Assembly: GCF_023101665.1 (NCBI RefSeq)
Contig: NZ_CP082161.1
Coordinates: forward strand, 7,918,501-7,982,500
Source: Bradyrhizobium sp. 195
Lineage (GTDB): Bacteria > Pseudomonadota > Alphaproteobacteria > Rhizobiales > Xanthobacteraceae
Direction of reading: 5' to 3'
Length of the DNA stretch: 64,000 nucleotides
Positions 13,714 to 50,936 of this stretch are shown here, piece by piece. The notes under the pieces are model-generated. The model did no database searches. It saw only the letters and a program-made list of their open reading frames with translations, and had not been told where the DNA came from. The position numbers were made by a program, and so were the translations under genes. How positions within the stretch are numbered: position 1 is the stretch's first letter; each line of letters starts with the position of its first letter.

Positions 13714-13830
13714 TGCCAAGCCGAAGCAACCGGCAACGAGCCCACCCTTCGCCCTGCGGGCTTCGGCGCGACAGCCTCGCGCAAACGCGGTTTGCGAAGG
13801 CTGGCGGAGAGAGTGTCAGTCAATCCAGAT
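13714..13830 (+). repeat. Dispersed intergenic repeat, copy A
   Basis: This roughly 115-bp stretch is matched by the copy at 15829-15943: both run CTTGCC(A/G)AGCCGA, CGGCAACGAG, TTCGCCCTGCGGGCTTCGGC, then GCGAAGGCTGGCGGAGAGAG and TGTCAGTCAATCC. The GGCGGAGAGAGTG core equals the reverse complement of a tRNA-Ser 3' end. It lies between the LysR and nitroreductase genes. Confidence 0.75.
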
Positions 13831-26903: not shown

Positions 26904-26920
26904 TGGCGGAGAGAGTGTCC
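26904..26920 (-). other. tRNA-Ser 3'-end-like fragment, candidate attachment site
   Basis: TGGCGGAGAGAGTG (26904-26917) equals the reverse complement of a tRNA-Ser 3' terminus (CACTCTCTCCGCCA); the rest of a tRNA is absent. It lies about 125 nt upstream of the integrase gene, where att sites are usually found. The same 14-mer also occurs inside the repeats at 13802 and 15918, so chance or a shared repeat family cannot be ruled out. Confidence 0.4.
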
Positions 26921-27043: not shown

Positions 27044-28234
27044 ATGGATTGTGGTATGGAAGCCCGCCGCAAGCATCCCCAAAAGGCCCTTACCCAGGTT
27101 CGGATCAACAGCTTGTCTAAACCCGGCCGCTACGGCGATGGGAATGGACTGTACCTCGTCGTCGATGAGTCCGGTGCAAAGCGTTGGGTGCTCCGGACGG
27201 TAGTGCATGGGAAGCGAAGGGACATGGGGCTCGGTAGCCTGCGTCTCGTCCCTCTTGCCGAGGCTCGTATCAAAGCGGTCGAGTACCGGAAGCTAGCACG
27301 GGATGGAGGTGACCCGGTCGCAGCCAGGCGTTCGGCTAAGGTAGGCGTACCGTCGTTCACAGACGCCGCACGTACCGCGCTTGAACAAAGACGACCGGGT
27401 TGGAAGGATGGGAAAAGTGCCTCGCAATGGCTGAACAGCTTATCCAACTACGTTTTTCCTGTCATGGGCGACAAACGGGTTGACCGCATCGAGACTTCCG
27501 ACGTGCTTCGAGCCCTCTCACCGATATGGCTCTCCAAGCCCGAAACAGCGCGCCGTATCCGTCAACGGATAGCTATCGTTCTAGACTGGGCCAAAGCGGC
27601 GGGTCATCGGAGCGGCGACAATCCGGTTGAGGGGGTTGGGAAGGGACTACCTCGCCAAAACGAACGGCGCGGTCATTTTAACGCGATTCCCTACGCCGAC
27701 GTACCCGAGTTCGTGAGGAAGCTGCCGGAATTCCCCACTAACGACTTTGCTCGGCTCGCATTCGAGTTCTTGATCCTGACTGCGGCTCGAACAAATGAAG
27801 TTCTGAGAGCCGAATGGTCTGAAGTGGATTTTGAGCGATCCGTCTGGACCATTCCAGGAGCCAGGATGAAAGTCGGGAGAGATCATCGCGTGCCTCTAGC
27901 TGCTCGATCCGTTTCATTGCTGCAGTCCGCCCGTGAGAAGACTGACGGATCACAGCTGATCTTTCCCGGTCGAACGACCGGAACGCCGATGTCCAACATG
28001 GTGTTCTTAATGATGCTTCGTCGAATAGGGGCTAGCTTCACCGCACATGGCTTCCGCTCTGCATTTCGAGATTGGGCGGCCGAGTGCACAAATTTCCCAA
28101 GGGAGGTCTGCGAGATGGCGCTGGCGCACTCAATCAAAGATAAGACGGAAGCGGCTTATCGGCGTGGCGACCTCTTCGTCAAACGTGTGGAACTTATGCG
28201 AGCGTGGGCGGACTATGCGGGAGGGCACACTTGA
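27044..28234 (+). CDS. P4-type tyrosine integrase (DUF4102 arm-binding domain)
   Basis: A 396-residue site-specific recombinase. The N-terminal arm-binding domain is 'KPGRYGDGNGLYLVVDESGAKRWVLRTVVHGKRRDMGLGS' (about 26-66), the core-binding domain is in the middle, and catalytic residues are the Arg in 'TAARTNEVLRAEW', His-x-x-Arg in 'HGFRSAF', a second His in 'ALAHS' and the Tyr in 'EAAYRRGD'. The start could be ATG 27044 or ATG 27056. It is the leftmost gene of the accessory region and presumably inserted the island. Its stop overlaps a TTG start of the next gene. Confidence 0.93.
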   Translation: MDCGMEARRKHPQKALTQVRINSLSKPGRYGDGNGLYLVVDESGAKRWVLRTVVHGKRRDMGLGSLRLVPLAEARIKAVEYRKLARDGGDPVAARRSAKVGVPSFTDAARTALEQRRPGWKDGKSASQWLNSLSNYVFPVMGDKRVDRIETSDVLRALSPIWLSKPETARRIRQRIAIVLDWAKAAGHRSGDNPVEGVGKGLPRQNERRGHFNAIPYADVPEFVRKLPEFPTNDFARLAFEFLILTAARTNEVLRAEWSEVDFERSVWTIPGARMKVGRDHRVPLAARSVSLLQSAREKTDGSQLIFPGRTTGTPMSNMVFLMMLRRIGASFTAHGFRSAFRDWAAECTNFPREVCEMALAHSIKDKTEAAYRRGDLFVKRVELMRAWADYAGGHT

Positions 28235-29124
28235 GCGATAAGACATTCAAGCAGCGCGTTATGGAGGAGGCCGAGTCCTTCGCGGAAATCTATGAATACT
28301 TCCGCGAGGACCTCGAGACTTGGCAAGCAGAAAAAGGACTGATGGACAATGACTGGGCCCATCTGTTCGCTGTTCCCCTCCATGGCAGCGAAGCCAATGA
28401 AACAGAGGAGCGGAAGAAGGCTCGGCGCGAATGGAAGGTATTGCATAAGCACGATGCTGCACGAGAGGCCGTACAACAACTAGGAGACGCAACGCGCGTC
28501 GGTCCGATTGTGCTCAAGGATTCCCGCGTTTCTACAGCGCTTGAGATGGGGCTTCTAAATTCTAATGATATCGCCCCGAAATCAAAGGGAAGCTTTGTTG
28601 GCGCTGAAAAATTAGCTCAACGCCTAAAGCCGGAGCACGATGATCCGATCTTCTGGCGGACGCTTCTTGAAATCTTTTGCAGGGCTTTTACGGCGCCGCG
28701 CGGCCGCCCGCCATGGCCTATAGGAAAGATGATCGAACTGGCTTTTGACTTGAACGATATTAAAAGCACGCGTCCGGACAAGAAGTGGACTATCAGCGAT
28801 TTCTGCGAAGTGCTTAAGACGGACAAAAGGTATATCAGAGTTTATAGCAAGTACTCATCTGCAGGCGATCAATCCGGCATCGGAGAGGACCGTATAAAGC
28901 AGATATTTAAGCTCATCGGCTCTATGGATGACAATTCACTGCGCCGATTGAGAGACCTATTTCCCGACGAGTTCTACAAGGGGGCCGATCGGCATCTCCG
29001 CCGCAAGATACTGGATCGCAGCGAGGATTATCTCCGCACAATTTTAGACATGGCAGACGACGTGAACGACGCGCTCGAGAAATCTCGCAGCACGAGCAGC
29101 ACCTCAAGTCAGGAGGGGCAATAG
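28231..29124 (+). CDS. Island-borne hypothetical protein, 297 aa
   Basis: The chosen start is TTG 28231, which overlaps the integrase stop (TTGA) and has GGGAGG 7-12 nt upstream; ATG 28261 is an alternative. The protein is hydrophilic, begins LSDKTFKQRVMEEAESFAEIYEYF and ends in a Ser/Thr-rich tail. 'WTISDFCEVLKTDKRYIRVYSKYS' could be an HTH, but I do not recognise the family. Coupling to the integrase suggests an accessory function for the element. GC content is clearly lower than in the core region. Confidence 0.6.
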   Translation: MSDKTFKQRVMEEAESFAEIYEYFREDLETWQAEKGLMDNDWAHLFAVPLHGSEANETEERKKARREWKVLHKHDAAREAVQQLGDATRVGPIVLKDSRVSTALEMGLLNSNDIAPKSKGSFVGAEKLAQRLKPEHDDPIFWRTLLEIFCRAFTAPRGRPPWPIGKMIELAFDLNDIKSTRPDKKWTISDFCEVLKTDKRYIRVYSKYSSAGDQSGIGEDRIKQIFKLIGSMDDNSLRRLRDLFPDEFYKGADRHLRRKILDRSEDYLRTILDMADDVNDALEKSRSTSSTSSQEGQ

Positions 29125-29196
29125 GCCCCTTTTTAGTCCCCGGCACTAGTCTCTAATTGTCCACTCCATCGCAGCTCAGACCGATGGAGTACGACA

Positions 29197-29430
29197 GTGA
29201 AGACGACCACGACGGCGGGCCTGAGAAGGCTGGCCACTATCATCAAGCCAAACGGGCCCATCCCCGTGGGGAAATCGACCTGGTGGGCCGGCGTGAAGTC
29301 TGGTCGGTTCCCCGCTCCCGTTAAGCTCGGACCGAGGATCACCGCTTGGCGGGATTCTGACATCCAGCAATTAATTCAAGAAGGCATCCCGCGAGTAGCC
29401 ATCGCCCCCGGGAATGGGGACGCGTCATGA
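29197..29430 (+). CDS. AlpA-like HTH regulator / excisionase-type protein
   Basis: A 77-residue protein from GTG 29197. The body 'PIPVGKSTWWAGVKSGRFPAPVKLGPRITAWRDSDIQQLI' is the AlpA/MerR-like winged helix of phage and island regulators. It ends in an ATGA overlap with the next gene (29427), so it heads the modification operon. In its family AlpA controls integrase expression or acts as a directionality factor; regulation of the downstream operon is likely. Confidence 0.85.
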   Translation: MKTTTTAGLRRLATIIKPNGPIPVGKSTWWAGVKSGRFPAPVKLGPRITAWRDSDIQQLIQEGIPRVAIAPGNGDAS

Positions 29431-30422
29431 TCCTCGCGCCAAACGAAGCAGATGAACGAAGTCAGCACCCGACTGGCCTCGATGCGCAGATCGCCGACAA
29501 AGCCCAAACTTCGCACGAACTCTGCGCCGCAGCATCGGATGCCGAGGCGGCGGCTGACGAGGTCGCCGATCATTGGATCCGCGCCGCCAACTTCCTGATT
29601 CTAGGCTGCAAGAAATTGGTTGCGGCACTGCAAGACTTCGAAAACCAACCTGAAAAGATCCAGGCCTTCCTGCGCCGCCTCGTTGCCAGGGGGATTCTCT
29701 CGGAGAATGACGTGCTGGCGCGGCTCAAAGCAAATGGGAAACTGGCGATGCTGTCGAAGATCGGCAAGCACGCTGACGTTCTTCTGCAGCAGTCGTTTCT
29801 TCGGGTGCTGGCCTTGAGGGGTTACTCCGTCGCCTATCAAGTCTGTCTGCTGATCGAGGAGGCCGGCGTTGTGCGAGCGCTGGCCGAATTATCCAATCAT
29901 CCGGAGGTCACCCGCGACGATGTGGTCAGAATCCGCGCAACACTGAGGTCGCCCAAAGGCGTGTCCCACGAGAAAAAGCAGGATTCGTTGGATGGCGCGG
30001 CGCAGTTGTTTGCGATGCGGCTGACCGGGCGTGATGCGCGGCTTTTCGTCACCGAATACGCGCAATCCGACACCCTCGCCAATTGCCTTCGGTGCCCTCT
30101 GCCTGCAGATGATGCCGGCCTCGTGGCAGTCGTTCCCATTGCCACGCTGGGCGCCTTCGAGCGCAACCTGATGCCCGTGTTGGGCTTCGGTTCGATCGAT
30201 GGGCTGTTTCTCGAAAGCGACCCGCACCACCCCGAAATTACAGACTTCGACGTCATTGTGGTCGCCGGGCGCGGGAGCTTTCGCGCGCAAGCACTGACCG
30301 AGTTTCGAGACGCAGAGAATGTGCTCGACCTAGCAGAATTCTTCTTTCCCGGTTGCGCCGCTAAGCACCAGCTGTTTGCAGACTGCGGATTCCGACGAAG
30401 TCGCCCAGGCGTACCGATATGA
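29427..30422 (+). pseudogene. IS-disrupted gene for an unknown 341-aa protein
   Basis: The frame from ATG 29427 encodes 319 native residues and then reads 12 residues (CGFRRSRPGVPI) into the IS21 element. If the element (30384-33134) and one copy of the TGCAGAC duplication are removed, the frame continues through 33142-33210 for 22 more residues and stops at a TGA overlapping the ATG of the next gene. The original protein was thus 341 residues with translational coupling on both sides. It is predicted soluble and helical in its first half; 'ADHWIRAANFLILGCKKLVAAL' is amphipathic. I do not recognise it. Loss of the last 22 residues may or may not abolish function. Confidence 0.85.
30377..30383 (+). 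repeat. Target site duplication, left copy
   Basis: TGCAGAC immediately left of the IS21-family element. The identical right copy is at 33135-33141. Confidence 0.9.
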
Positions 30423-30643
30423 AGTCGCCCGTGGATTCCGAGACGATGTCGCCCACCTTTCCGATTTGATCTCGCCCAGCGGCGAGGCGTTCTGGCCGGC
30501 TGGTTCTCTGGCATCGGTCAAGCCGCGTGGTCAATCTGGAATCGCGACTTCGACCTGTTTTTCTTCTTCTGCAGTTGCTGTGGGCATGTGGGCAACGCGA
30601 TTGCGTTGTCCAAGCGCAGCGGCATGTCCACAGCGCCACGGGC

Positions 30644-31387
30644 TCAGGTCTTTCGGGCGGATTGCCGGGTTCGGCGCAGGCTCTCACCGGTGAGGTCGAG
30701 CCGATGGGCATTGTGGACGAGGCGATCGAGCACGGCGTCGGCATAGGTGGGATCTCCAATGAGCAGATGCCACTGGTCCACGGGGAGCTGGCTGGTGACG
30801 ATGGTGGAGCGATGACCGTAGCGATCTTCGAGGATTTCCAGGAGGTCGTGACGGGCACCGGCGTCGAGCGGCTCGAGTCCCCAATCATCGAGGATCAGCA
30901 GATCGACACGGCCAAGGCCGCGCAACAGGCGTGGATGGCGGCCGTCGCCGCGGGCGAGCGCCAGATCGTCGAACAGTCGCGGGACGCGCTGATAGAGCAC
31001 GGAGCGATTGTCGCGACAGGCCTTGTGGCCGAGCGCCGAGGCGAGCCAACTCTTGCCAACGCCGGCCGGGCCGCAGATCAGGAGATTGACGTGGTCGTCG
31101 ATCCAGCGGCCCTCGACAAGCTTAGCGAACAGCGGGCGGTCGAGACCGCGCGGGGTGCGGTAGTCGATGTCCTCGACGCACGCCTGCTGGCGCAGCTTGG
31201 CGTAGCGCAGGCGAGTGGCGAGCCGTTTGTCGTGCCGCAGCGAGGCTTCACGTTCGAGCAGCAGCGCAAGCCATTCGGTGTGACCGAGGCTTGCGGCCTC
31301 ACCGGTGGCTTCGATGTCGGCGAAGGCCTTGGCCATGCCGTGGAGGCCGAGGGCGTTGAGGCGGTCGAGGGTCGGATGGGTGAGCAA
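30644..31387 (-). CDS. istB: IS21-family ATP-binding helper protein IstB
   Basis: A 247-residue AAA+ ATPase from TTG 31387 with a GGAG ribosome site. Walker A is 'ICGPAGVGKSWLA' and Walker B is 'LLILDDWG', with 'TIVTSQLPVDQWH' as the sensor-1 region. It selects targets and stimulates the IstA transposase. The start was set at TTG because the family N-terminus is 'LTHPTLDRLNALGLHGM'; the open frame further upstream overlaps istA and is not coding. istA ends about 11 nt before this start. Confidence 0.93.
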   Translation of the reverse strand: MLTHPTLDRLNALGLHGMAKAFADIEATGEAASLGHTEWLALLLEREASLRHDKRLATRLRYAKLRQQACVEDIDYRTPRGLDRPLFAKLVEGRWIDDHVNLLICGPAGVGKSWLASALGHKACRDNRSVLYQRVPRLFDDLALARGDGRHPRLLRGLGRVDLLILDDWGLEPLDAGARHDLLEILEDRYGHRSTIVTSQLPVDQWHLLIGDPTYADAVLDRLVHNAHRLDLTGESLRRTRQSARKT

Positions 31388-31398
31388 GGGATGATCTC

Positions 31399-32952
31399 CT
31401 AATTGTAGTAGCGCGGTCCGCGGATGTTGGCATGCAGGATCGGCGCATCGTCCGCGGAACGCTGGTGAGCAGAACGCCGATCGAGATTGTTGGCGAGGAT
31501 CGACTTGACCGAGCCATAGGTGCGCGCGCCGATGTCGATTGCCCGCGCAGCCGCGGCGTCCAGCCGTTCGCGCCCATAGGAGGCGGCGAGCCTGAGGATG
31601 CCGAGGCAGGCGCGGAAGCCTTGCTCGGGGTGCGAGCGCTCGTCGAGAATGAGGTCGCACAACGCGCTGGTCGCCGGCCCGATCGCGGCGGCGTCCTGGC
31701 GGATACGCGCGATGGTCCAGCCGGCGTAGCGCCGATGGCTGGAGGCCATGTGCTCCGGCACGGTGGTGTGTTTGTGATTGCCGCTCATGCGCTGATGCGC
31801 GGCGATCCGCTCGCCCTTGTGGAAGATCTCGACGGTACGGGCCGTGAACCGCACCTCGACCTCGGCGCGGGCGAAGCGATGCGGAACGCTGTAGTAATGC
31901 TTCTCCACCTCGACGTGGTAATCGAGACTGACGCGGCGGATCCGCCACTCGGCGAGGACATAGGGGGACGCCGGCAATGGCTTGAGCGCCGGCCGGTCGA
32001 CCTCCTCGAGCAACCGGCGGCGTGTCACGCCGAGCCGCCGGATCGGCCGTTCCTCATTCAGCCTCGTGAGCAGTTCGCCGATCGCCGCATTGACCTCGGC
32101 CAGGCTGTAGAAGGTGCGATGGCGCAGGCGGCCGAGCAGCCAGCGCTCGACGATGAGGACGGCCTGCTCGACCTTGGCCTTGTCGCGCGGCTTGCGCGGC
32201 CGCGCCGGCAAGATGGCGGTGCCGTAATGCGCCGCCATCTCCGCGTAGGTACGATTGATCTGCGGGTCGTACAGGCTCGCCTTAATGACCGCGACCTTGG
32301 TGTTGTCGGGCACCACCAGCGCCGGTATGCCGCCGATCGCCGCGAAGGCGCCAACATGGGCGCTGATCCAGTCGGCGAGCCCCTGCGTCCACGTCGCCTG
32401 CGCGTAGGTGAAGCTCGATGCGCCGAGCACGGCGACGAAGATCTGCGCCGTTCTGCGCTCACCGGTCAGGCGGTCGACCACCACCGGCACGCCATCGCCG
32501 GCATAGTCGACGAACAACTTGTCGCCGGCCGCATGGGCCTGGCGCATCGTCACCGACAGGCGGCCCTCCCAGGCGCGGTAGAGCTCACAGAAGCGCGAGT
32601 ACCGGTATCCGCCGGGCTCGGTGGCGATATATTCCTCCCACAGGATCGACAGCGTCACGTGCTTGCGTTTGAGCTCGCGGTGCACGGTCGCCCAGTCGGG
32701 CTCGGCGATGCGGCGGTGACCCTGACGGTTGCCATTGCCGGTCTTCGCGAACAGGCGAAGTTCCAGAACCGTGTCGGTGACGTCGTCTGGCAACGGCCAG
32801 CTCAAGCCCGCGGCCTCGAACCGCCGGAGCGCCAGGCGCACCGTCGAGGGCGCCGCGCCCACCCGTCGCGCAATCTCGCGGCTCGGCAGCCCGGCCGCCT
32901 TCATTCTGATCACATCGCGCACACGGCGCATCGCAAGCCTCTCCGTCGGCAT
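31399..32952 (-). CDS. istA: IS21-family transposase IstA
   Basis: A 517-residue DDE transposase from ATG 32952. The N-terminal HTH 'MRRVRDVIRMKAAGLPSREIARRVGAAPSTVRLALRR' is followed by the rve catalytic core: 'LFVDYAGDGVPVV' (first Asp), 'ALVVPDNTKVAVI' (second Asp) and the Glu in 'KAKVEQAVL'. A Mu-transposase-like C-terminal domain is present. An upstream ATG at 33015 lies in the end repeats and is not favoured. Confidence 0.95.
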   Translation of the reverse strand: MPTERLAMRRVRDVIRMKAAGLPSREIARRVGAAPSTVRLALRRFEAAGLSWPLPDDVTDTVLELRLFAKTGNGNRQGHRRIAEPDWATVHRELKRKHVTLSILWEEYIATEPGGYRYSRFCELYRAWEGRLSVTMRQAHAAGDKLFVDYAGDGVPVVVDRLTGERRTAQIFVAVLGASSFTYAQATWTQGLADWISAHVGAFAAIGGIPALVVPDNTKVAVIKASLYDPQINRTYAEMAAHYGTAILPARPRKPRDKAKVEQAVLIVERWLLGRLRHRTFYSLAEVNAAIGELLTRLNEERPIRRLGVTRRRLLEEVDRPALKPLPASPYVLAEWRIRRVSLDYHVEVEKHYYSVPHRFARAEVEVRFTARTVEIFHKGERIAAHQRMSGNHKHTTVPEHMASSHRRYAGWTIARIRQDAAAIGPATSALCDLILDERSHPEQGFRACLGILRLAASYGRERLDAAAARAIDIGARTYGSVKSILANNLDRRSAHQRSADDAPILHANIRGPRYYN

Positions 32953-33134
32953 CCAGGGTCCCCTTCGCAAAGCCGAAAGAGTTGACCCTATGGGAGCCAG
33001 AAGAGGCCTCGTCACCCGGGCGACATCATCCCGGAATGGTGGGCGACATCATTTCGGAACGGGTGGGCGACTTCAAATCGGAATGGTGGGCGAGATCATC
33101 TCGGAATCCTGGGCGACATCGATCGGAATCCGCA

Positions 33135-33141
33135 TGCAGAC
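33135..33141 (+). repeat. Target site duplication, right copy
   Basis: TGCAGAC immediately right of the IS21-family element, identical to 30377-30383. Confidence 0.9.
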
Positions 33142-33206
33142 CAGCGCGCCGACGGCTGGACCTGCTCGATTGGGGACGAGAACTGGACGGAAAGGCCGAC
33201 CATCCG

Positions 33207-35282
33207 ATGAGCGACGATCTTCGCACCATTCTTCGCGCCGAAGTAGCGGCACGGAGTTCGTGCAGCCAAGTCGCTCTCCTATTGTCCGGCGGTGCCGACA
33301 GCTTCGTCGTTGGTTACTTCTGTGAGGAGGTCGGTAAAAGAGTCGTCGCCTACACCTATGAACTTGATGGCATCCCTTCGGTTGAGCGGCCGGCCGCAGA
33401 AGCGATAGCCCGCCACATGGGCTGGCCACTTCGGATCGTTCGCGTGCCGACTGGGGGATTGAGAGCGGCGTTCCTGCGGTTAGCGATCCAACACGGTTGC
33501 TCGAAGAAGACCCAGTTCGAGGTCACATACCCGATCGCTCACGTCATCCCCGAAGTGGCGGAATGCGAGATCTTCACGGGCTGGAACTTTGACGATCACT
33601 ACGGCAATACCCGCGAAGACATTATGGAAATGGCTGGGCTCAAGCGGGCCGGGCTCTCCTGCGCCGAGTTGCAAGTGCATTTCGACGCCTTGCGAGCCTC
33701 AAAGTATGCGAAATCGGACGCGGCCGGCTCCCCCGACACGTTCTGGTTCGCTACCCGGATCGCTTCGGCACTTGGCAAACGGCTCGTCGACCCTTCCACG
33801 GCCGAACCGGTGCGCCGGTTCTTTCGCCAGTTTTCCCACGACGAGCTGTCGCGGCTCGACAAGCCCATCATCAGAAAGATCTTTGCTGACGCCTTTCGCC
33901 GCCTTCCTCAGGGTTTGGTCGCCAAGGGCGTCAAGCTGCAGAAGGGCGGCGGCGTCCACGAGCTTTTTAGGACGTTGGTGGACGATCCGATTATCAATCG
34001 GTTTGAGACGAAGTACGCGACCTTGAGCGCGCTCTGCAAGCGCTGGGCGTCGGAGGTGCGCGCGAATCCGGACCAATACCTCAATGAACTGGCCGCGGCT
34101 CCCCCGCTTCGCAAGGCGACCGTGATCCAGGCTCGGGGCGCCAACGTCGGTCGCCCGACGATGGCCGAGGTGAATGCGGCGTCGTTGCGCAAGCGCTTCA
34201 CGGTCGTTTCGCTGTTCGCGGGCGGCGGCGGGTCCTCGATGGGGTACAGGCTGGCGGGCGGAGACGTCCGGGCAATCAACGAATTCGTCGCGGAAGCCGC
34301 TCGCACCTACTCACGCAACTTTCCCGGGACCATTATCGATAAAAGGGACATCCGCGACATCGTTCGCGATCGGGCGAACGTCATCGCTTTCCTGGCAATG
34401 ATCGGCCTGCTGGTTGGCGAACTGGACCTGCTCGACGGTTCTCCACCCTGCTCAGAGTTCAGCACCGCGGGAAACGGCCCGACAGAGCCCGGCGTGCTGA
34501 AAGCGTACTCCGACCGAACTCAAAAGGACATCTCGATGCTCCCCTTCGAGTTCGCGAGGTTCGCCCTGATCGCCCGCCCGAAGGTCGTCGTGATGGAGAA
34601 CGTGCCTGCGCTCGCCTCCCGCGGGGAGGCGATCTTCAAAGCCCTGCTCAAGATGCTGAGCGCCGAATTCGTCGTGACATGGCGCGTCTTATCCGCGAAC
34701 GACTTCGGCGTTCCGCAGACCCGGCGCCGGCTGTTCGTCCTGGCCGTTCGAAAGGACGTCGCAGAAGCCGTTGGGATCACGAGCGAGTTCGCGGCGTCGT
34801 TGCTGTTTCCCAACCCGACACATACGGGCACCACGGTTCGAGATGCGTTCGCTGATCTGAACCAGTCACACGAAGACGTTCGCCCGTGGATCGCCTCTGC
34901 GCGGACGACCACGATCGCGACGGCCGCCGCCAGGCTACCGAAGAGCCCGGCCCGGCTGTTGCGGCCCAACCACGTGGGCCTTCAGGTCACCGGCAACTAT
35001 ACGCTCACGCGGTGCTCTTACGATCTGCCCGCGCCGACGCTGACGGTCACGGGGCAGCAACCGAGCGGATTGGCCGGCGCCATCCATCCCGAGCACGACC
35101 GCAAGTTCACTATCCCCGAACTGAAGCGCCTGACCGGCCTTCCCGACGATTACGCGCTCACCGGCACGCTCGGGCAAGCGGCGGAAAGGATATGCCGCAT
35201 GGTCACTCCCTTCGTAGCCGAGGCGATCGCCGAGAGCATCCACCGGAAGATCTTGAAGCCCTACAGAGAGACCCTGAAATGA
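33207..35282 (+). CDS. Asparagine-synthetase-like PP-loop domain fused to DNA cytosine-C5 methyltransferase
   Basis: A 691-residue fusion. Residues 1 to about 300 are an AsnB-type synthetase without the glutaminase domain: PP-loop 'LLLSGGADSF' (about 24-33), 'IFTGWNFDDHYG' in place of the usual GDGxDE loop, and a C-terminal region like AsnB 'R..P.....R.A...LP'. Residues about 330-691 are a C5-methyltransferase: motif I 'SLFAGGGGSSMGY', catalytic Cys in 'GSPPCSEFS', motif VI 'MENVPAL', motif VIII 'QTRRRLFVLAV' and motif IX 'APTLTVTG'. Motif X reads 'ICRMVTPFVAEA' instead of the usual GN(A/S)VP, with Arg664 in place of the conserved Asn. The start overlaps the stop of the IS-disrupted gene; the end overlaps the next ATG. 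I propose a base-hypermodifying enzyme (see findings). Confidence 0.88.
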   Translation: MSDDLRTILRAEVAARSSCSQVALLLSGGADSFVVGYFCEEVGKRVVAYTYELDGIPSVERPAAEAIARHMGWPLRIVRVPTGGLRAAFLRLAIQHGCSKKTQFEVTYPIAHVIPEVAECEIFTGWNFDDHYGNTREDIMEMAGLKRAGLSCAELQVHFDALRASKYAKSDAAGSPDTFWFATRIASALGKRLVDPSTAEPVRRFFRQFSHDELSRLDKPIIRKIFADAFRRLPQGLVAKGVKLQKGGGVHELFRTLVDDPIINRFETKYATLSALCKRWASEVRANPDQYLNELAAAPPLRKATVIQARGANVGRPTMAEVNAASLRKRFTVVSLFAGGGGSSMGYRLAGGDVRAINEFVAEAARTYSRNFPGTIIDKRDIRDIVRDRANVIAFLAMIGLLVGELDLLDGSPPCSEFSTAGNGPTEPGVLKAYSDRTQKDISMLPFEFARFALIARPKVVVMENVPALASRGEAIFKALLKMLSAEFVVTWRVLSANDFGVPQTRRRLFVLAVRKDVAEAVGITSEFAASLLFPNPTHTGTTVRDAFADLNQSHEDVRPWIASARTTTIATAAARLPKSPARLLRPNHVGLQVTGNYTLTRCSYDLPAPTLTVTGQQPSGLAGAIHPEHDRKFTIPELKRLTGLPDDYALTGTLGQAAERICRMVTPFVAEAIAESIHRKILKPYRETLK

Positions 35283-35971
35283 CCAAGTGCCGGCCCAAGA
35301 AAGATTTCTCCTTTGGAGACTACGCCGAAACCTTCGACGCTCATATCCGTGCGTCGATACCCGGCTTCCAGCAGCTGGTCGATTACACCGTCGACCGGTC
35401 GGTCACATACGTCCAGCGGGAGACTACGGTCGTCGACGTCGGCTGCTCGACCGGGCGGACGCTAGCAGCCATCCGGCGGGTAAACCAAGCGGCGCGGCCG
35501 GACGCAGACTATCTCGGCATCGACATCGAGCCGCGGTTTCGTCCCTGCTGGGAGAAGCATTCGTTCATGAACTTCCGCTGCGAGGTCGGCGACGCGCTGA
35601 CGCATCCGTTCGACAATGTCTCATTGGCATGCTGCATCATGACGCTTCTGTTCCTGCGGCCGGCTCACAAGCTGCCTTTGCTTAAGCGCATCCGGAGCTC
35701 GATGGTCGAAGGGGGTGCGCTCCTCATCGCGGAGAAGACGCTGGCAGAGACGTCGCGTCAGGAAAGCGACGCGGAGGCCGCTTACATGGACTTCAAGCGC
35801 AGGCAGGGCTTCCGCGCGGAAGAGATCTTGGAGAAGCAGAGCAGCCTCCGGGGTCAGATGACCAGAATGACCGAGCGGGAGCTGCGAGAGATCTTGGTGT
35901 TGGCCGGCTTCCGTGACGTAGAGTCCTACTGGAGGGGGCACATGTTTGTGGCCTTCGTGGCGCTGATATAG
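35279..35971 (+). CDS. CmoA-like SAM-dependent enzyme (possible carboxy-SAM synthase)
   Basis: A 230-residue Rossmann protein, start coupled by ATGA to the fusion gene. It follows E. coli CmoA along its length: 'FDAHIRASIPGFQQL', motif I 'VVDVGCSTGRTLAAI', 'LGIDIEP', 'SLACCIMTLLFLRP', 'MVEGGALLIAEKTL', 'DFKRRQGFRAEEILEKQSS' and the end 'VAFVAL'. CmoA converts SAM and prephenate to carboxy-SAM for tRNA modification. The residue aligning with CmoA Arg199, which holds the carboxylate, is Gln187 here by my hand alignment, so the product may differ. Its place next to a DNA methyltransferase rather than cmoB points to DNA, not tRNA. A plain methyltransferase is the alternative. Confidence 0.78.
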   Translation: MTKCRPKKDFSFGDYAETFDAHIRASIPGFQQLVDYTVDRSVTYVQRETTVVDVGCSTGRTLAAIRRVNQAARPDADYLGIDIEPRFRPCWEKHSFMNFRCEVGDALTHPFDNVSLACCIMTLLFLRPAHKLPLLKRIRSSMVEGGALLIAEKTLAETSRQESDAEAAYMDFKRRQGFRAEEILEKQSSLRGQMTRMTERELREILVLAGFRDVESYWRGHMFVAFVALI

Positions 35972-36096
35972 CACCACGCTGGACCAATGTTTTTACCGAG
36001 TAAAACCGCGACACGTCGGCACAGTTGATTCTTGATGACACCCCGCCGTTCTCTTCTGCTGTCCAACCCACCCAAATCGAGAAAGGAAGTATTGCA

Positions 36097-36477
36097 ATGA
36101 CGCGAACATCAGCATTCGGCCGGTACGGCGTCCGCTCGGCCATGAACCGGTGGTCCGGGGTTTCCGCTGACGGGTCGACCGCAGCAGTCAGCCTCTGGAA
36201 AGATGAGCTTGAAGGACCGGCGGGAGCGATGGTCTATCACAAGGCAGACACTAGAGACTGGACGAACGGGATAGCCAAGCGCGAGTTTTTCCGGCACCTC
36301 CAGCATGCTGTCGATCGCTGCGGAGGCATCGTCAGGGTAGTCATGGTCGTCCGTGATCCGTCCAACCCCTCTCGGACGATCGACTGCTACCCGGCGCCGA
36401 ACGTGATCATGCGAGTGGCAGCCTTGAACATGGTTGGGCTCGCGTTTCGGCTCGAACAGGCGGATCTCGGAGTCTGA
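36097..36477 (+). CDS. Hypothetical protein after the modification operon, 126 aa
   Basis: From ATG 36097, with GAAAGGAAG 7-15 nt upstream, the protein begins MTRTSAFGRYGVRSAMNRWSG. It is small, basic to neutral and soluble, with 'GGIVRVVMVVRDPSNPSRTIDCYPAPNVIMRV' forming likely beta strands. I do not recognise it. The 125-bp gap to the CmoA-like gene leaves room for its own promoter, but direction and proximity allow membership of the same system. Confidence 0.6.
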   Translation: MTRTSAFGRYGVRSAMNRWSGVSADGSTAAVSLWKDELEGPAGAMVYHKADTRDWTNGIAKREFFRHLQHAVDRCGGIVRVVMVVRDPSNPSRTIDCYPAPNVIMRVAALNMVGLAFRLEQADLGV

Positions 36478-36615: not shown

Positions 36616-37368
36616 TCATTGGAGCTCGCCATTAGCTCGGGGTAATACAAGCAGAGCATCGTCATAGGAAATTCGTCCGCGGAGTACCGTTTTGAACACG
36701 TATTCGACCACGCAATCCGGCGTGCTGGTTATCGGCTGGACGTGGATGCGAGCTACCAGCTTCCTCGGCCCGGCATACAAGTCCGCTTGGTTCTTGAAAT
36801 GCTCGGCTAGGGGCTCCTTCAAGCGGGTGAGCGGTGGGACCAATAAGACGGCATGAAAATGCAGGCCGCCATTGCACGAAGTGGGCTCGTTCGAGCGAGC
36901 GGACTTAGCAACCGGAAGGTCCGCCACCGCGATCAGGACGGGAAGCTGGTAGATGGGGATGGCCCTGGGCTTGCGATGCGTCCTAGTCACAAAGGTCGAG
37001 TAAACTCGTTGGACCTCATCTCGCATCTGGCCGACGACGGATGCACGTGGACCGCGGAGATGATCAAATACGAAGGTCACGAGATATGCCGACCACCCAT
37101 CTTCCATTCGGTCGGATACCAGCCGCGAGTACCCGCCGATCATCAATTGCAGGGATCGGCTAGCCGGGAAAAGCTGCTTGAATGGGACGGAAGATTGATG
37201 AACGGCTTGGATAGGATCGATGTCTCGTTCAAGCTCCGTTTGATGGATTGGATATTCGAGCTTGGTCTGTAATGTAGCAATAGAAGACCATATGCCTTCC
37301 GTAGCCGGTGGCATTCTGTAAAACTCCGGGTCGCAGGGATGCTCATGTGGCCATCCAACAAGACGCAA
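36616..37368 (-). CDS. Probable HUH-type replication/relaxase-like protein
   Basis: A 250-residue protein with three features in the order of rolling-circle Rep proteins: 'SAYLVTFVFDHLRG' (motif I-like strand), 'CNGGLHFHAVLLVPP' (His-hydrophobic-His, metal site) and 'VVEYVFKTVLRGR' (Tyr-x-x-Lys, nicking Tyr). This suggests nicking or replication of a small mobile element, or an inovirus-type Gp2/YagK relative. The assignment rests on these motifs only. It is transcribed toward the modification operon and separated from it by 138 bp. Confidence 0.55.
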   Translation of the reverse strand: MRLVGWPHEHPCDPEFYRMPPATEGIWSSIATLQTKLEYPIHQTELERDIDPIQAVHQSSVPFKQLFPASRSLQLMIGGYSRLVSDRMEDGWSAYLVTFVFDHLRGPRASVVGQMRDEVQRVYSTFVTRTHRKPRAIPIYQLPVLIAVADLPVAKSARSNEPTSCNGGLHFHAVLLVPPLTRLKEPLAEHFKNQADLYAGPRKLVARIHVQPITSTPDCVVEYVFKTVLRGRISYDDALLVLPRANGELQ

Positions 37369-37586
37369 AGGCCTGCGCGTTATTTAGCTACTTGGGACCC
37401 GCCGAAAGCATCTCATCGGAGACTTTTTTCAGCTACTCCCGGTAGCGATCTTGAACTGCGGCTACGGTAGGCGCTGACGCGCAATTCGCGATACATTTCT
37501 GGGGACAATTGCGCATCCACCTGCAAAGAGATTCAAAGAACCCGTTTGGCAAGCGGTTAGCAACGAAGCTGAGATCCGAGGAGGAC

Positions 37587-39071
37587 ATGACCAAAAAGCG
37601 AAACATGACCGATGTCGAAGTCGGCCTGGCACGAGCCATGCTCGCGAAGGGCATGAAGAACGATCAGGTGCATTTCTACTTCAACCGCGCCGACCGTTTG
37701 ATCAGCTCCGGTCGTATTGCGCAGATCAAGGACGGCAGTTACGCCAAGGACGTCGCTGCGGCTACCGACGATGAACTGGCAGATTTCATCACTAAGTGGG
37801 ATGCAGAGCACGCCGCCATTTACACAAAAGGCCCGCAATCGCCCACTGAGTCTGACTTTATTGATGCCTTGTTCGAGAAGCGCAAGAGCAGTTGGCATGT
37901 ACGACACGGCGAGACCGACACCGTTGAATGCAAACTCAACTACGCCGTCAGTGGCAAAATCCTTAGAGCCATCGCGGGGCTTGCAAACAACAAAGGCGGG
38001 CACATTCTGTTCGGAATCAGAAATGAAGCAACCATCGTTGACGGCATGTCGGACGACAAGTTCGAAACACTCGATCCAGCGCTGCTGACTTCACATTTGG
38101 TGAGCTTTCTCGACCCAGTTCCGACGGTAACGCGCATCTCACATGTGATTGGAGGCAGGAAGATCGGAGTGCTTCACGTAGAGAAGCATGAAAGGCCGCC
38201 GATAATCGTCCTCAAAGGAATGGGTGGCGACCTTCGTGAGGGTGCCGTGTATTTCCGGTATGTCGGTGAAACGCGGCAGATCAAGCCAGGAGAGATGAGG
38301 GCGATTATCGAAGCGCGAGAGGCTCGCGCGGTCGCCGAATTTAGCAGGAGAATGAGTCGCGTGGCCTCCGGCGCAGGCGCCACTATCGATCTCGATACCG
38401 GTGAGGTGACGGGAAGGACAGGCAGTTTCGTCATAGACCGAGAACTGCTTCCCTCGATCCAATTCGTTCGAGAAGGAGACTTCTCGCAAACAAAAGGCGC
38501 TCCCACATTGCGACTTGTTGGGGATGTGCAGCCGATGTCGGCTGCGGATCGGGATAGAATCCACGTCGTGCGAGACAATATTCCGCCGAACTCGATTGTC
38601 GAAAACTTCTTAGATGACAATCAAGTAAGGGATCCGTTGGCTTATCTGCACGCCCAAGCCTACTACCAACGGAAGTGGATGCCAATTTGGCACTACGTGC
38701 GCCAGCTTTCCATGAGCATCGATGATCTGGTTGAGGACTTGCGCCAACTTTCGGCGTGTATGCCGTCTAGTCGCGACGCTATCGTACAACGGCTGCGCGG
38801 CACGCTGTCGGCCTATAAGATTTACACCGGAAAGCCAAAAACGATGTTGAACGATCTGCGAGCGGGCAAGATCAAAATTCCCAAAAACGACGTCGATCTC
38901 AGCGCCTTTGCCTACGCACTTCATGGTCTACCCAACGATTTCGAAGAGATCGAAAAAGTCCGACCGATAATACACGAATGCTTAAAGAGAGATAACGCGG
39001 AGAAACACCGGAGCCAGATCTACCGAGCCGCATGTCGGGTCGACGAAATCATCCATTATCAGCGAAAATGA
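37587..39071 (+). CDS. AlbA_2 / Schlafen-domain putative DNA-binding protein
   Basis: From ATG 37587 with a strong GAGGAGG site the protein has 494 residues. The N-terminal 'MTDVEVGLARAMLAKGMKNDQVHFYFNRADRLISSGRIAQI' resembles an HTH. The AlbA_2/Schlafen domain is 'TVECKLNYAVSGKILRAIAGLANNKGGHILFGIRN' (about 112-150). The helical C-terminal half is unassigned. Schlafen-like proteins occur as regulators and as nuclease or defence effectors. It is followed by the first copy of the island repeat at 39118. Confidence 0.75.
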   Translation: MTKKRNMTDVEVGLARAMLAKGMKNDQVHFYFNRADRLISSGRIAQIKDGSYAKDVAAATDDELADFITKWDAEHAAIYTKGPQSPTESDFIDALFEKRKSSWHVRHGETDTVECKLNYAVSGKILRAIAGLANNKGGHILFGIRNEATIVDGMSDDKFETLDPALLTSHLVSFLDPVPTVTRISHVIGGRKIGVLHVEKHERPPIIVLKGMGGDLREGAVYFRYVGETRQIKPGEMRAIIEAREARAVAEFSRRMSRVASGAGATIDLDTGEVTGRTGSFVIDRELLPSIQFVREGDFSQTKGAPTLRLVGDVQPMSAADRDRIHVVRDNIPPNSIVENFLDDNQVRDPLAYLHAQAYYQRKWMPIWHYVRQLSMSIDDLVEDLRQLSACMPSSRDAIVQRLRGTLSAYKIYTGKPKTMLNDLRAGKIKIPKNDVDLSAFAYALHGLPNDFEEIEKVRPIIHECLKRDNAEKHRSQIYRAACRVDEIIHYQRK

Positions 39072-40206: not shown

Positions 40207-40791
40207 TCAAAGCTGTTGTACCACCCGCCTCTGCGCGTCTGCATTCTCCTCTATGTATCGCTGTGTCGTCCGAAGGTTGGAGTGTCCGGCTAAAGCCTGG
40301 ACATCCCTGAGTGATCCGCCAACAGTAGAAATCTTTCGCGCCGCGCCGGTAATGAAGGTCCGTCGGCCGCTGTGGCTGGAGCAGCCGATGAAGCCCAAGT
40401 GTCGGTACCAACGCTGGAACATGTTCACGACGACCTGCGGTGACGTACCGGGGGATCGCTCTGTGCCGATCACGTAGTCTCCGGTCGCTGTTGCCGTGGT
40501 CTTCCGGTACGCAGTGAGCGCGGCTCTTACTGCCGGGTGCATCGGGATCACGCGGCCAGACGTGCCCTTGCTTGCATCGTTGGTCAGGTGGATAGCATGG
40601 CCGACCTGCCCAGCCGCGTCACACACCATCCGCCAAGTCAGGTGAGCTATCTCCTTCGCCCTAAGCCCGGCCTTTGCCGAGAGCAGGAAGATTAGCCTGT
40701 CTCGTTCGGGGTATCTGGTAGTCGAGAGATAGGCGAGAATGGCTTCAGCCTGCCCCTTGGCCAGCGTCTTCGCTTGCTTCCCCAAACCCAT
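40207..40791 (-). CDS. Small tyrosine recombinase, catalytic domain only
   Basis: A 194-residue XerC/D-like phage integrase without an N-terminal SAM-like domain. Catalytic residues are the Arg in 'AGLRAKEIAHLTW', His-x-x-Arg in 'HSGRRTFITGAA', the His in 'LAGHSNLRTTQRYI' and the Tyr of that same string. Such short recombinases occur in rhizobial islands. Its start lies about 128 nt from repeat copy 2, so that repeat may be its recombination site (inference). Confidence 0.85.
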   Translation of the reverse strand: MGLGKQAKTLAKGQAEAILAYLSTTRYPERDRLIFLLSAKAGLRAKEIAHLTWRMVCDAAGQVGHAIHLTNDASKGTSGRVIPMHPAVRAALTAYRKTTATATGDYVIGTERSPGTSPQVVVNMFQRWYRHLGFIGCSSHSGRRTFITGAARKISTVGGSLRDVQALAGHSNLRTTQRYIEENADAQRRVVQQL

Positions 40792-41069: not shown

Positions 41070-42266
41070 TTAGGCCGAAGTAGCCCCTAAAATCGGTGAA
41101 ACTCCCCGACTGATGCGTGGCCGACCAGTCGTGAAAAAGCCGCTGCAGCGTTCTTTCTCTAGACAGCCTGAGCACGCTTCTACATATGCGTTCTTCCAAT
41201 CTGAGATAGATTGAACTGCCTGAGGCCAAATAGTTCGAGGCAGCACGCACCGAGGCAGATTGTAAATCGAAACCTTGATCCCGGCCGAATTGAGGGCGGC
41301 CACTCCTTCGGCAAGCTGATCTTGATAGTCGAGTGGGTCAATCCAGAGCATTGCATCGTTCGCGATTGCGAATCCGGTGTTCTCAAGGCCCATCAAAGCG
41401 ACATGATCCACAATGGGAAGGTTGCGCGCAAGCCAACGGCATGTCTCCGCGACGATTGGAGCCGTCAAAGCGTGGAGGACAACTCGAACTTCCACCCGCT
41501 GTTTGCGATCCTTTAACTTTAGCACGCCAAGGACCGTCTCGTCGAATGCACCTTTAGCTTGGACTACGTAATCGTGAATGTGGTCCACAGCGGCATAGAT
41601 AGGTATGCCAGCGGTCAGTTGGGGATGTCGCAAATCTGCCCAAGCAGCGGCCACCTCTGTTCGTGCAAAGGCTCGTCCGTTTGTGAGGACATGAATGGCG
41701 GTATCAGGCAAAGATGACTTACATTGCGCGAGGAGATCTATGAACTCCCGCCAATCAGTCAGAGTCTCGCCGCCGGTGAACGCAAAGGACTTCGTTGTAG
41801 GGTCCACAAACGGCAACGCGCGACTAATCTCCTCCAGCACCCATCTGTCGTCCACATTTCGCGGCGGCTGCGAACACATCAAGCAGTTATGGTTGCATCG
41901 TTCGGTTACTAAGAACGAATTATGATTTGACTCGCGTCGATAGAGTGACCGGAACTTCCCTGTTTGAGGCTGCAGCCCAATTAAGTCCCCGTCCGCCAGA
42001 TAGCTATATTCGGGCGTGACCACCAAGAGATCACGGAATTGACTTCCAGGGATGGTGGTGTGATTTCCCACCAACACGGCCTTCGTGAATCCGGATTTGA
42101 CGGCGGTTCCAATCTCTTCTGAGCTTTTGATTACGGCCGCATCAACCGCGTGACGTGGCGATCTAGTCGGCGCAGCCAGACGAACAACCTCTGAAGGGTG
42201 CGGCGTCTCGAATCCGCGCACATAGGATGCAGTGCCACGAAGCGGCAGCATCACATCATGCTCCAT
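41070..42266 (-). CDS. hxsC: His-Xaa-Ser system radical SAM maturase HxsC
   Basis: A 398-residue radical SAM enzyme. The 4Fe-4S site is 'CNHNCLMC' (CxxxCxxC), with 'SFAFTGGETLTDWREFIDLL' as the SAM-binding GGE region, and a C-terminal Cys cluster 'CSGCLEKERC'. It is the last gene of hxsA-D-B-C, overlapping hxsB by 16 nt. With HxsB it is expected to modify the His-Xaa-Ser repeats of HxsA; the chemical change is not settled as far as I know. Confidence 0.9.
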   Translation of the reverse strand: MEHDVMLPLRGTASYVRGFETPHPSEVVRLAAPTRSPRHAVDAAVIKSSEEIGTAVKSGFTKAVLVGNHTTIPGSQFRDLLVVTPEYSYLADGDLIGLQPQTGKFRSLYRRESNHNSFLVTERCNHNCLMCSQPPRNVDDRWVLEEISRALPFVDPTTKSFAFTGGETLTDWREFIDLLAQCKSSLPDTAIHVLTNGRAFARTEVAAAWADLRHPQLTAGIPIYAAVDHIHDYVVQAKGAFDETVLGVLKLKDRKQRVEVRVVLHALTAPIVAETCRWLARNLPIVDHVALMGLENTGFAIANDAMLWIDPLDYQDQLAEGVAALNSAGIKVSIYNLPRCVLPRTIWPQAVQSISDWKNAYVEACSGCLEKERCSGFFTTGRPRISRGVSPILGATSA

Positions 42267-43708
42267 GACCTGAGCACGGCCGCGTCCTCCGGGGAGTTGT
42301 CAAGCAGATCGAGTATGGTGGATATCACCCCCTTCTGTCGCTGGCAGAAGCCGGAAAGCGGCTTGATGCCCAGGGGGTCGCCATGAGTGGCGTGATGATA
42401 GACCGGATCAGCGCCGCAGTGGCTCTCATACACACAGTCGTGGCACTCTGGCGCACATTGACTGAGTGACGCAGCAACGTTCGATACAAGCTTGTTGGAT
42501 AGAATGAGGGAACGATAGTCGTTGTCCACGACGTGGCCCAGCTCAAAGCTGCGATCTCCCATCTCGGCAAGCATGCGTCCTTCGTCAGACGCGAAAACCA
42601 AGCCGTCGTAGTTGTAAACGAGAGCGCCCAGCCCTATGCCCGCAGGGCTTCGGAGATCGACATACCCGATGGGCTGATCCGTCAGGATTCGCCGCAGGAG
42701 CAGGAGCGTATAGAACTCGAAGAACTTGCGACCCTTGCGGTTCAGATCGAGAATGTATCGGAGCCCGCGCCGATAGAAGCCCATCCATTCGGCAGAGTCA
42801 TACTTTTGAAACTGCTTGGTTTTAATCGCGAAGCCGTATGGCGATAATGGCCTTAGGAAGACGCCATCCAGTCCGTGCGCAACGTACTCATCAATGATCT
42901 CTTCGACACGGTCAAGACTGTGCCTCGTGGTCGTCATCAGCGCGCTGACGCGATCAAGCCCCAATGTTGCTTGAGCCTTCTTAATTCCTTGGATGGCGAG
43001 TTCATGACTATCTCCACCCGGCCTCGGACGGTTGCGGTTGTGAAGGTCCGGCGGCCCATCCAGCGATGTTGATAGAGAGACATGGTTCGCCTTGCAAAAC
43101 GAAAGGATCTCGTCAGTCAGCAGCGCCAAGTTCGACGCAATGACGAAATCAACCTCCTTGCCCTTGCCTGGGGCCTCCCGTTTTGCAGCTTCAACGACCT
43201 TCTGAATCAAGGAAAAGTTCAGAAGTGGCTCGCCTCCCTGAAACTCGATCTTGATGTGAGACGATGGACTTTGAAGCGCGATGGAAAGCGCGCGGTGAGC
43301 CGTCTCCTCACTCATATCGAAAAGCGAGTGATCTGTGCTCTGTCGAGATACCTGACAATAAGGGCACGAATGTTCGCACCGGAGAGTGACGACAAACATG
43401 TGGAGTGCTGTCGGCTGACGCAGAAACGACATCCGAGTTCGCAGCCGCATAGCCAGGATTTGATGCTGCGCGCTCTGTCCCTCTCGGGAGACTAGGTGAG
43501 CCGAGTACGCTCGCTCGTACAGGCCATCACCCGGCTGCAGTTGGAGGTCGATCAGCCGCTGGAATTCATTCGCGTTGAGGCGGATAAAGTCACCAACGAT
43601 GTTGGAGACAAGATATTCCGTGGCGCTCTTCCGCTCAAAGCGAAGCGGCATAAGTTGCAACGGCGCTTCACTTCCATGAAAATCGCCGGGTGGGAAGAAG
43701 CGAGACAT
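42251..43708 (-). CDS. hxsB: His-Xaa-Ser system radical SAM maturase HxsB
   Basis: A 485-residue radical SAM/SPASM enzyme. The cluster is 'CEHSCPYC' (CxxxCxxC), followed by 'IKIEFQGGEPLLNFSLI' (SAM-binding GGE), and the SPASM-type auxiliary cysteines are 'CAPECHDCVYESHC' and the late 'LSGFC'. It opens 'MSRFFPPGDFHGSEAPLQLMPLRFER'. It lies 6 nt after hxsD. SPASM maturases typically act on ribosomal peptides, in keeping with HxsA as the substrate. Confidence 0.92.
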   Translation of the reverse strand: MSRFFPPGDFHGSEAPLQLMPLRFERKSATEYLVSNIVGDFIRLNANEFQRLIDLQLQPGDGLYERAYSAHLVSREGQSAQHQILAMRLRTRMSFLRQPTALHMFVVTLRCEHSCPYCQVSRQSTDHSLFDMSEETAHRALSIALQSPSSHIKIEFQGGEPLLNFSLIQKVVEAAKREAPGKGKEVDFVIASNLALLTDEILSFCKANHVSLSTSLDGPPDLHNRNRPRPGGDSHELAIQGIKKAQATLGLDRVSALMTTTRHSLDRVEEIIDEYVAHGLDGVFLRPLSPYGFAIKTKQFQKYDSAEWMGFYRRGLRYILDLNRKGRKFFEFYTLLLLRRILTDQPIGYVDLRSPAGIGLGALVYNYDGLVFASDEGRMLAEMGDRSFELGHVVDNDYRSLILSNKLVSNVAASLSQCAPECHDCVYESHCGADPVYHHATHGDPLGIKPLSGFCQRQKGVISTILDLLDNSPEDAAVLRSWSMM

Positions 43709-50760: not shown

Positions 50761-50936
50761 GGGCGTCTAGGAATGCGCCGCGAGAGCGGCGACGGGCTCC
50801 TCGGGGGCCTGGGGCAGGGGATTTCCCATGTCCGCGAAGCGGAGCGTTATCTTCGCGCTGCGCGTTACTACGAGACACGCCTGGCGGCGTCTTGGTCGAG
50901 CCTCGCAGTATCACCCACCATGGTGGGTCAAAGTAG
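50761..50936 (+). ncRNA. Candidate retron msr-msd RNA region
   Basis: A 176-bp spacer between effector and reverse transcriptase, dense in hairpins: CGCGAAG (50833-50839) pairs with CTTCGCG (50851-50857) across an 11-nt loop; GCCGC-GAGA-GCGGC near 50777-50790; and the 16-bp palindrome ACCCACCATGGTGGGT (50913-50928) just before the start codon. Retron RNAs are normally just upstream of the RT gene and rich in such stems. The branching G and the a1/a2 arms were not resolved, and the borders are uncertain. Confidence 0.5.

Follow-up and report, generated by a model that had tools for sequence, protein, structure and literature searches.

A rare bacterial-island relative of the phage CmoA-CmoX-CmoY set in Bradyrhizobium sp. 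195, with a ligase-methyltransferase fusion predicted to carboxymethylate cytosine in DNA and cap it with an amine

Introduction

The best-described relatives of the locus studied here come from Synechococcus phage S-B43, for which the main text of a paper published in December 2025 (PMC12783734) describes a CmoA that makes carboxy-S-adenosylmethionine (Cx-SAM), a CmoX that makes 5-carboxymethylcytosine in GC motifs and contacts the carboxymethyl group through Arg350 (Asn304 in HhaI), and an AsnB-like ligase, CmoY, that adds glycine; the paper also reports ligase clusters that differ in their pocket residues and have unassigned amines. We have analyzed a homologous set in a 64,000-nucleotide stretch of Bradyrhizobium sp. 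195 (contig NZ_CP082161.1, positions 7,918,501 to 7,982,500; host genome, 9.1 Mb), hereafter called the window, in which an AsnB-like ligase domain and a C5-cytosine methyltransferase domain are encoded as one protein and are followed by a CmoA-like gene. Judged by homology, the locus is probably a version of the phage CmoA-CmoX-CmoY set carried by a bacterial island, with CmoY and CmoX in one polypeptide, that would make 5-carboxymethylcytosine in DNA and subsequently attach an amine to it.

Compared with the S-B43 set (PDB 8yf3), the window homologues of CmoA, CmoX, and CmoY are 32%, 39%, and 30% identical, respectively, and overlapping genes are common to both. Arg350, the cysteine of the SPPC motif, and the Phe, Glu, Phe, and Asp that bind Cx-SAM are all kept in the fusion. 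In contrast, a fused CmoYX precedes CmoA here, whereas the order in S-B43 is CmoA, CmoY, CmoX, all unfused; the set resides here in a bacterial island at tRNA-Ser, the acceptor loop of the ligase differs, and an extra conserved protein is encoded upstream.

An initial annotation of the window, made from its sequence alone, had regarded such a system as undescribed in nature, and this has been overtaken by the S-B43 publication (PMC12783734). In a term search of the main text of that paper, with supplements outside its scope, neither a fusion of ligase and methyltransferase nor a carrier on a bacterial chromosome came up, and no other publication on such a system was among the matches listed in a literature search that had bioRxiv and most subscription journals outside its coverage. 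The chemistry is of a known kind; within the reach of our searches, novelty lies in the fusion, the bacterial-island carrier, the divergent ligase pocket, and the accessory protein.

Results and discussion

The methyltransferase half belongs with CmoX

The fusion is encoded on the plus strand at 33207-35282 as a single protein of 691 amino acids, in which a CmoY half (33207-34150), homologous to AsnB-like ATP-dependent amide ligases and carrying a PP-loop, precedes a CmoX half (34151-35282) homologous to C5-cytosine carboxymethyltransferases, the boundary between the two being approximate. Pfam recognized PF00733 (Asn_synthase, E 4.3e-5) and PF00145 (DNA_methylase, E 3.1e-42), and the AlphaFold model of the whole protein is confident (predicted local distance difference test, pLDDT, 88.8; predicted template modeling score, pTM, 0.85). 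The fusion family examined below comprises 121 proteins, namely that of the window and the best 120 of 1429 homologues; both halves are present in all of these 120, and 109 of them have at least 620 residues.

CmoX was by far the closest structure to the methyltransferase half. The fold and the SPPC motif are shared with C5-cytosine methyltransferases of the M.HhaI/DNMT type, but the motif X Asn of the 5-methylcytosine enzymes (HhaI Asn304) is replaced by Arg in the window. We aligned the 121 family proteins with the CmoX of 83 viral loci (3 plus the best 80 of 549, a sample picked by similarity) and with 57 C5-methyltransferases from genomes of the same order. At the column of Arg350 in the S-B43 enzyme (SpCmoX), all 112 family rows that have a residue there carry Arg (the other 9 are gaps), as do 83 of 83 such viral rows (12 further partial rows being gaps), whereas the ordinary enzymes had Arg in 0 of 46, with Asn in 45 and Gln in one (gaps in the other 45 rows). 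The SPPC cysteine, equivalent to Cys98, is present in 120 of the 121 family members, with one gap, and the window protein has both residues: Cys414 (codon 34449-34451) and the carboxymethyl-binding Arg663 (codon 35196-35198), in the numbering of our record P0001 without the initiator Met. The columns of the Cx-SAM contacts were similarly uniform across the family: Phe25 was Phe in all 121, Glu47 was Glu in 114 and Asp in 7, Phe48 was Phe in 120 and Leu in one, and Asp69 was Asp in 117, Asn in 3, and Glu in one.

By Pfam names alone, the protein could be a plain 5-methylcytosine methyltransferase to which an AsnB domain had become fused by accident, with an unrelated methyltransferase as its neighbor. 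The exchange of the motif X Asn for Arg in every family member with a residue there, the structural match to CmoX, the CmoA gene adjacent at all four chromosomal loci (see below), and the reported use of Cx-SAM only by wild-type SpCmoX (main text of PMC12783734) make this explanation extremely improbable.

The phylogenetic tree, for which long branches and uneven composition were flagged, sampled 17 fusions, 71 viral proteins, and 10 ordinary enzymes (of 121, 83, and 57, respectively) and also included SpCmoX and an unfused chromosomal CmoX from genome G1137 (100 sequences in all). In it, the fusions formed one clade (100/98) nested in CmoX (100/100). The sole viral fusion, that of locus L070, clustered with the unfused G1137 protein (100/99) and may therefore represent a separate fusion event. 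This viral contig (1082-4805) encodes a CmoA, a 308-aa-type protein, and the second, probably independent, ligase-CmoX fusion.

The ligase half and the amine

While the Asn_synthase half is a weak match by Pfam, it is clearly related to the characterized S-B43 ligase SpCmoY (30% identity, E 6e-35, residues 7-264). The PP-loop ligase part (PF00733) is shared with asparagine synthetase B, but the N-terminal glutaminase domain is absent; indeed, the N terminus of the fusion lies only about 25 residues ahead of the PP-loop, and SpCmoY is built likewise. Where the pattern found a PP-loop in the family (100 of 121 proteins), it starts at residue 45 or earlier. The acceptor loop reads NxDDxxGN in 12 of 13 aligned fusions and NADRYYGN in the 13th, a form seen in none of 38 viral ligases and not in SpCmoY, whereas ADGxxG occurs in 31 of the 38 viral ligases and in SpCmoY. 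With a looser pattern, NxDxxxGN (or C for G), 108 of the 121 family proteins were matched, and two had the viral-like form.

The initial annotation had proposed amidation by ammonia, with 5-carbamoylmethylcytosine as the product. This proposal would be in line with the AsnB ancestry of the half and with an acceptor loop that is not of the SpCmoY type, and in the main text of PMC12783734 another ligase cluster, one that has a glutaminase domain, is proposed to use glutamine-derived ammonia. We nonetheless consider ammonia unlikely, because the fusion has no glutaminase domain, the PP-loop lies close to the N terminus in the family as well, and the characterized ligase that also lacks that domain adds glycine (PMC12783734, main text). 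An amino acid or another amine is favored over ammonia from these sequence features, and glycine is not assumed, since the loop differs and ligase clusters with other pocket residues have been described.

The CmoA-like protein and its neighborhoods

The gene for the CmoA-like protein, a carboxy-SAM synthase homologue of phage type, lies at 35279-35971 on the plus strand. The protein matched TIGR00740 (E 1.7e-25) and the structure of Escherichia coli CmoA (E 1.3e-16) and was nearer to the phage family phrog_4752 (E 4.9e-46). The core residues that bind S-adenosylmethionine (SAM) and the Glu164-Lys165 pair of the E. coli tRNA enzyme (PDB 4gek; text of PMC3663124) are kept.

A fusion usually missing a CmoA-like neighbor had been named beforehand as a refuting observation; CmoA in fact overlaps the fusion in all four distinct chromosomal fusion loci found (the window; L005, from a B. 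jicamae contig; L006; and L183). Of the 83 viral CmoX loci, 69 have cmoA within 3 kb, 40 have an AsnB-like gene, and 37 have both, with the ligase and CmoX fused in one; where 2 kb or more was available on each side (35 loci), 33 have cmoA and 20 the ligase. The commonest viral three-gene order, ligase, CmoX, CmoA (24 of 83), is that of the bacterial fusion. In a phage collection of 50,697 records, 57 had a CmoA relative, the best being from Synechococcus phages at no more than 34% identity. A lack of cmoB had been named there as a supporting pattern, and neither CmoB (TIGR00452) nor CmoA (TIGR00740) exceeded its curated cut-off in any of 60 genomes of the genus, where weaker matches were seen for CmoB in 60 and for CmoA in 53, the best CmoB match reaching 71.6 bits over a partial model against a cut-off of 275.

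The adjacency of CmoA strongly supports the core of the function predicted in the initial annotation, namely carboxy-SAM from a CmoA-like enzyme, its use by a C5-methyltransferase homologue, and amide formation by an AsnB-like domain. By analogy with the phage enzymes, the CmoA-like protein would convert SAM and prephenate to carboxy-SAM; the SPPC cysteine of the CmoX half would attack C6 of cytosine, and the carboxymethyl group would be moved to C5 while Arg663 holds its carboxylate. The CmoY half would then adenylate the carboxylate with ATP and join it to an amine; by homology, glycine or another amino acid might be used, although the acceptor loop departs from the glycine type.

Points against the reading and the state of the window copy

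Several observations weigh against the reading of the locus as a working CmoA-CmoX-CmoY set. The CmoA-like protein scores 90.1 bits, below the TIGR00740 cut-off of 193.3. Arg199 of E. coli CmoA, said in the text of PMC3663124 to bind the carboxylate, corresponds to Gln in the window, and Tyr39 to Phe (Val in L006), while Tyr is present in 69 of 69 viral rows. Elsewhere in the genus, two further CmoA-like genes stand apart from any CmoX or CmoY within the 19.9 and 10.8 kb covered. The acceptor loop, which departs from the form in SpCmoY and the viral ligases, does not fix the amine partner. Full-length fusions are rare, being found in 2 of 265 genomes of the genus; the copy in G879, a genome of another genus, is split between two reading frames; and the insertion sequence (IS) in the gene upstream of the window fusion may be polar.

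Regarding position 199, Glu is present in SpCmoA, in all 67 of the 69 viral rows that have a residue there, and in L005 and L006. Position 203, in contrast, is Arg in the window, L005, L006, SpCmoA, and the viral rows but Glu in E. coli. Since SpCmoA, with Glu at 199, is an active synthase (PMC12783734, main text), we infer that Arg203 takes over from Arg199 in CmoA of the phage type.

The two CmoA-like loci devoid of CmoX and CmoY are L171 (8408-10663, genome G630) and L172 (9434-10177, on a second contig of G457). In the former, the gene directly upstream has a radical-SAM-like cysteine motif, as read by eye, so that carboxy-SAM may serve another enzyme in G630.

In terms of distribution, the fusion was found in 3 of 391 genomes of the family at E ≤1e-60, one being the G879 copy, and, among 385 genomes of the class at E ≤1e-50, in the window only, along with the unfused CmoX of G1137. 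A profile search of 397 genomes of the order returned ordinary methyltransferases, and the window was the only full-length match among the matches listed; the genus, family, order, and class samples overlap. Of 258 matching plasmid records, none covers 80% of the fusion. The fusion is a rare, mobile trait.

The initial annotation had listed AlpA, an unassigned 341-aa protein, the fusion, and the CmoA-like gene as four genes coupled by ATGA overlaps. AlpA, the fusion, and the CmoA-like gene are borne out by Pfam, TIGR, and structure matches, and the overlaps at 29427-29430 (AlpA and accessory gene), 33207-33210 (remnant tail of the accessory gene and fusion), and 35279-35282 (fusion and CmoA) are real. 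The second listed protein is not intact, however: an element of the IS21 family, overlooked in that annotation, sits in the end of its gene, leaving an interrupted reading frame of 331 codons (29427-30383, plus strand) and a remnant 3' tail (33142-33210, plus strand). The element (30384-33134, minus strand; 2751 bp) encodes an IstA-like protein (31399-33015) and IstB (about 30644-31402; IstB_IS21, E 1.1e-69), has inverted repeats that begin with TG and end with CA, and is flanked by a 7-bp target duplication, TGCAGAC, at 30377-30383 and 33135-33141. An uninterrupted relative of the accessory gene is present in L005. Because of this insertion, the four genes are not one unbroken operon in the window copy, and the module, separated by the element from upstream DNA, may be poorly expressed in this strain. 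Promoter and terminator scans of 28900-36100 gave results at the level of shuffled sequences (1 versus 1.2 and 5 versus 5.9), and no Rfam match was obtained at gathering scores in 25000-64000.

The locus might be a decaying passenger in this strain, with the accessory gene disrupted, transcription cut, and no modified base made. The IS21 insertion, the Gln199 and Phe39 of the window CmoA, and the split G879 fusion would all be consistent with such decay, but the reading frames of the fusion and CmoA are intact in the window and retain the catalytic signature residues of CmoX, and IS elements can supply promoters. We regard decay as a real possibility, albeit the less probable one.

The upstream accessory protein

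The interrupted gene belongs to a 340-aa family, a homologue of which precedes the fusion in L005, L006, and L183. By indirect record matching, a homologue was paired with the fusion in 17 of 25 close fusions and in 0 of 16 selected distant ones, a procedure that missed the distant homologues later found in L006 and L183. The structural model suggests that the protein may have an N-terminal helical or helix-turn-helix (HTH) part and a C-terminal part with an MT-A70-like fold, catalytically dead. In a Foldseek search of the PDB, MT-A70 proteins occupied 48 of the 50 rows shown and M1.HpyAVI the other two, none at E ≤0.001, and a further fold comparison gave MT-A70 rows as well. This resemblance of the C-terminal half to MT-A70 proteins (METTL3/METTL14, METTL4, and MTA1) is one of fold, without the DPPW motif and without a sequence or profile match. 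Indeed, the DPPW catalytic motif was found in none of the 34 members of the family alignment, nor in the copies of the window, L006, and L183; a PDB search by sequence gave an unrelated protein as its best match (E 1.5); and profile comparison of the 340-aa family gave 0.1% with two cellular MT-A70 proteins and 0.7% with 16 MT-A70 rows. An assignment to MT-A70 by Pfam was tried and rejected, as each of seven families, MT-A70 not among them, matched a single member of the 34 even with E values as high as 10 allowed. The MT-A70 rows were matched (95%) only by the 308-aa protein of G1137 and its L070 relative, the tie of which to the 340-aa family is weak (7.9%), while a mixed alignment gave 62%. 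Since the sequence and profile searches failed, the MT-A70 assignment stays a suggestion.

Beside these, we noticed that L185 (9607-12377), from the same class, has an unfused CmoX and a CmoA flanking a 308-aa HTH-like protein, with no AsnB-like ligase found in 19.9 kb. Also, L073, L074, L075, and 15 other viral loci have an MT-A70-like gene with DPPW upstream of CmoX, which could mean dual modification of adenine and cytosine. Passages of PMC12704722 describe archaeal ParB-fold fusions with MT-A70 and do not name CmoA.

The island and its cargo

The gene order from 26904 is integrase, 306-aa protein, AlpA, 331-codon gene, IS21 element, fusion, and CmoA-like gene. A tyrosine integrase with an Arm-DNA-bind_3 domain by Pfam (27044-28234, plus strand) has relatives of 75% identity in L005 and 63% in L183. 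It is followed on the same strand by the 306-aa protein (28204-29124), which has no Pfam match, and by an AlpA-like regulator (29197-29430; PF05930, E 8.8e-6) with homologues in L005, L183, and L006. In the related island of G879, the same run is found, comprising the integrase (63%), the 306-aa homologue in the same place (32%), AlpA, the accessory gene, the fusion, and CmoA; this island has a 19-bp repeat, the far copy of which is at the end of tRNA-Ser(GGA) 50 kb away.

As for the boundaries, a direct-repeat search and ARAGORN placed the left attachment site, attL, at 26904-26917, where the last part of tRNA-Ser(GGA), its 3' end, is repeated over 14 bp; the partner copy is in an intact tRNA-Ser(GGA) gene at the equivalent of 65552 (L157:1552-1641). 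The distance from the 26904 repeat to the tRNA is 38.6 kb, and its extent as a single element is not proven. Further exact copies of the 14-bp core lie at 13802 and 15918 (with two mismatches or fewer, 0.82 are expected by chance, and three were reached in 6 of 100 shuffles), and a truncated integrase lies at 40207-40791; several islands may therefore be stacked at one tRNA. As comparison with the empty sites of G431 and G623 gave no clean right flank, the end of the island was placed by the tRNA repeat. In L005, a search for an end repeat found none.

The most likely role of the modification would be to protect island DNA, host DNA, or both from restriction by marking it. Alternatively, the locus might belong to a restriction-modification or defense system in which the hypermodification identifies self DNA to a cognate nuclease encoded by the island. 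This alternative would fit with the islands encoding a helicase-Mrr protein (window, 54242-56710), an Mrr-like protein (L005), and an SNF2 helicase (L183), and with the TIR protein and the reverse transcriptase beside a PRTase in the window island. These nuclease- or helicase-like genes, however, differ in kind and lie about 18, 5, and 2 kb past CmoA in the window, L005, and L183, respectively, and no nuclease domain was recognized in the run from integrase to CmoA in the window, which is weak evidence because unassigned genes in that run remain. On balance, we consider a cognate nuclease improbable and prefer escape from restriction. PADLOC matches of the fusion were to generic methylase models and were not taken as a defense assignment.

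Some other cargo genes deserve mention in their own right. The helicase and Mrr-like nuclease domain noted above are encoded on the minus strand and resemble the restriction half of type IIG enzymes. A retron-like defense unit at 49534-52094 pairs a reverse transcriptase (RVT_1) with an adjacent PRTase-CE gene (PADLOC PRTase_III-A, 4e-115), and overlapping genes at 57304-62706 (minus strand) for a TIR/iSTAND protein, an AAA ATPase, and a Sel1-repeat protein are possibly a defense operon. Two neighboring radical-SAM genes at 41070-43708 (minus strand) gave weak viperin-like matches, and a protein with a Schlafen AlbA_2 domain is encoded shortly 3' of the module (37509-39071). Downstream of CmoA, homologous proteins (44% identity) are encoded in two islands, at 36616-37368 (minus strand) in the window and at 13651-14544 in L006; their HxH and YxxK pattern is reminiscent of HUH replication proteins, and PHROG gave no match.

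Conclusion

Going further, we tentatively suggest, as a rather doubtful extension, that the CmoYX clade makes an undescribed base, a non-glycine amide of 5-carboxymethylcytosine, by means of a channeled single enzyme, and that an HTH and dead MT-A70 subunit would target it to DNA, like METTL14 beside METTL3, so as to mark tRNA-Ser islands as self. If the reading of the locus as a CmoA-CmoX-CmoY set holds, one fused enzyme would carry out carboxymethylation as well as amide formation, its ligase pocket hinting at a different amine, and this would offer an enzyme pair for seeking a new DNA base and a single-protein tool to attach amines to DNA. The carboxylate-handle chemistry, known from phages only since December 2025, would then also be present in bacterial chromosomes on integrative islands, where bacteria might use 5-carboxymethylcytosine for self-marking or anti-restriction of these islands.

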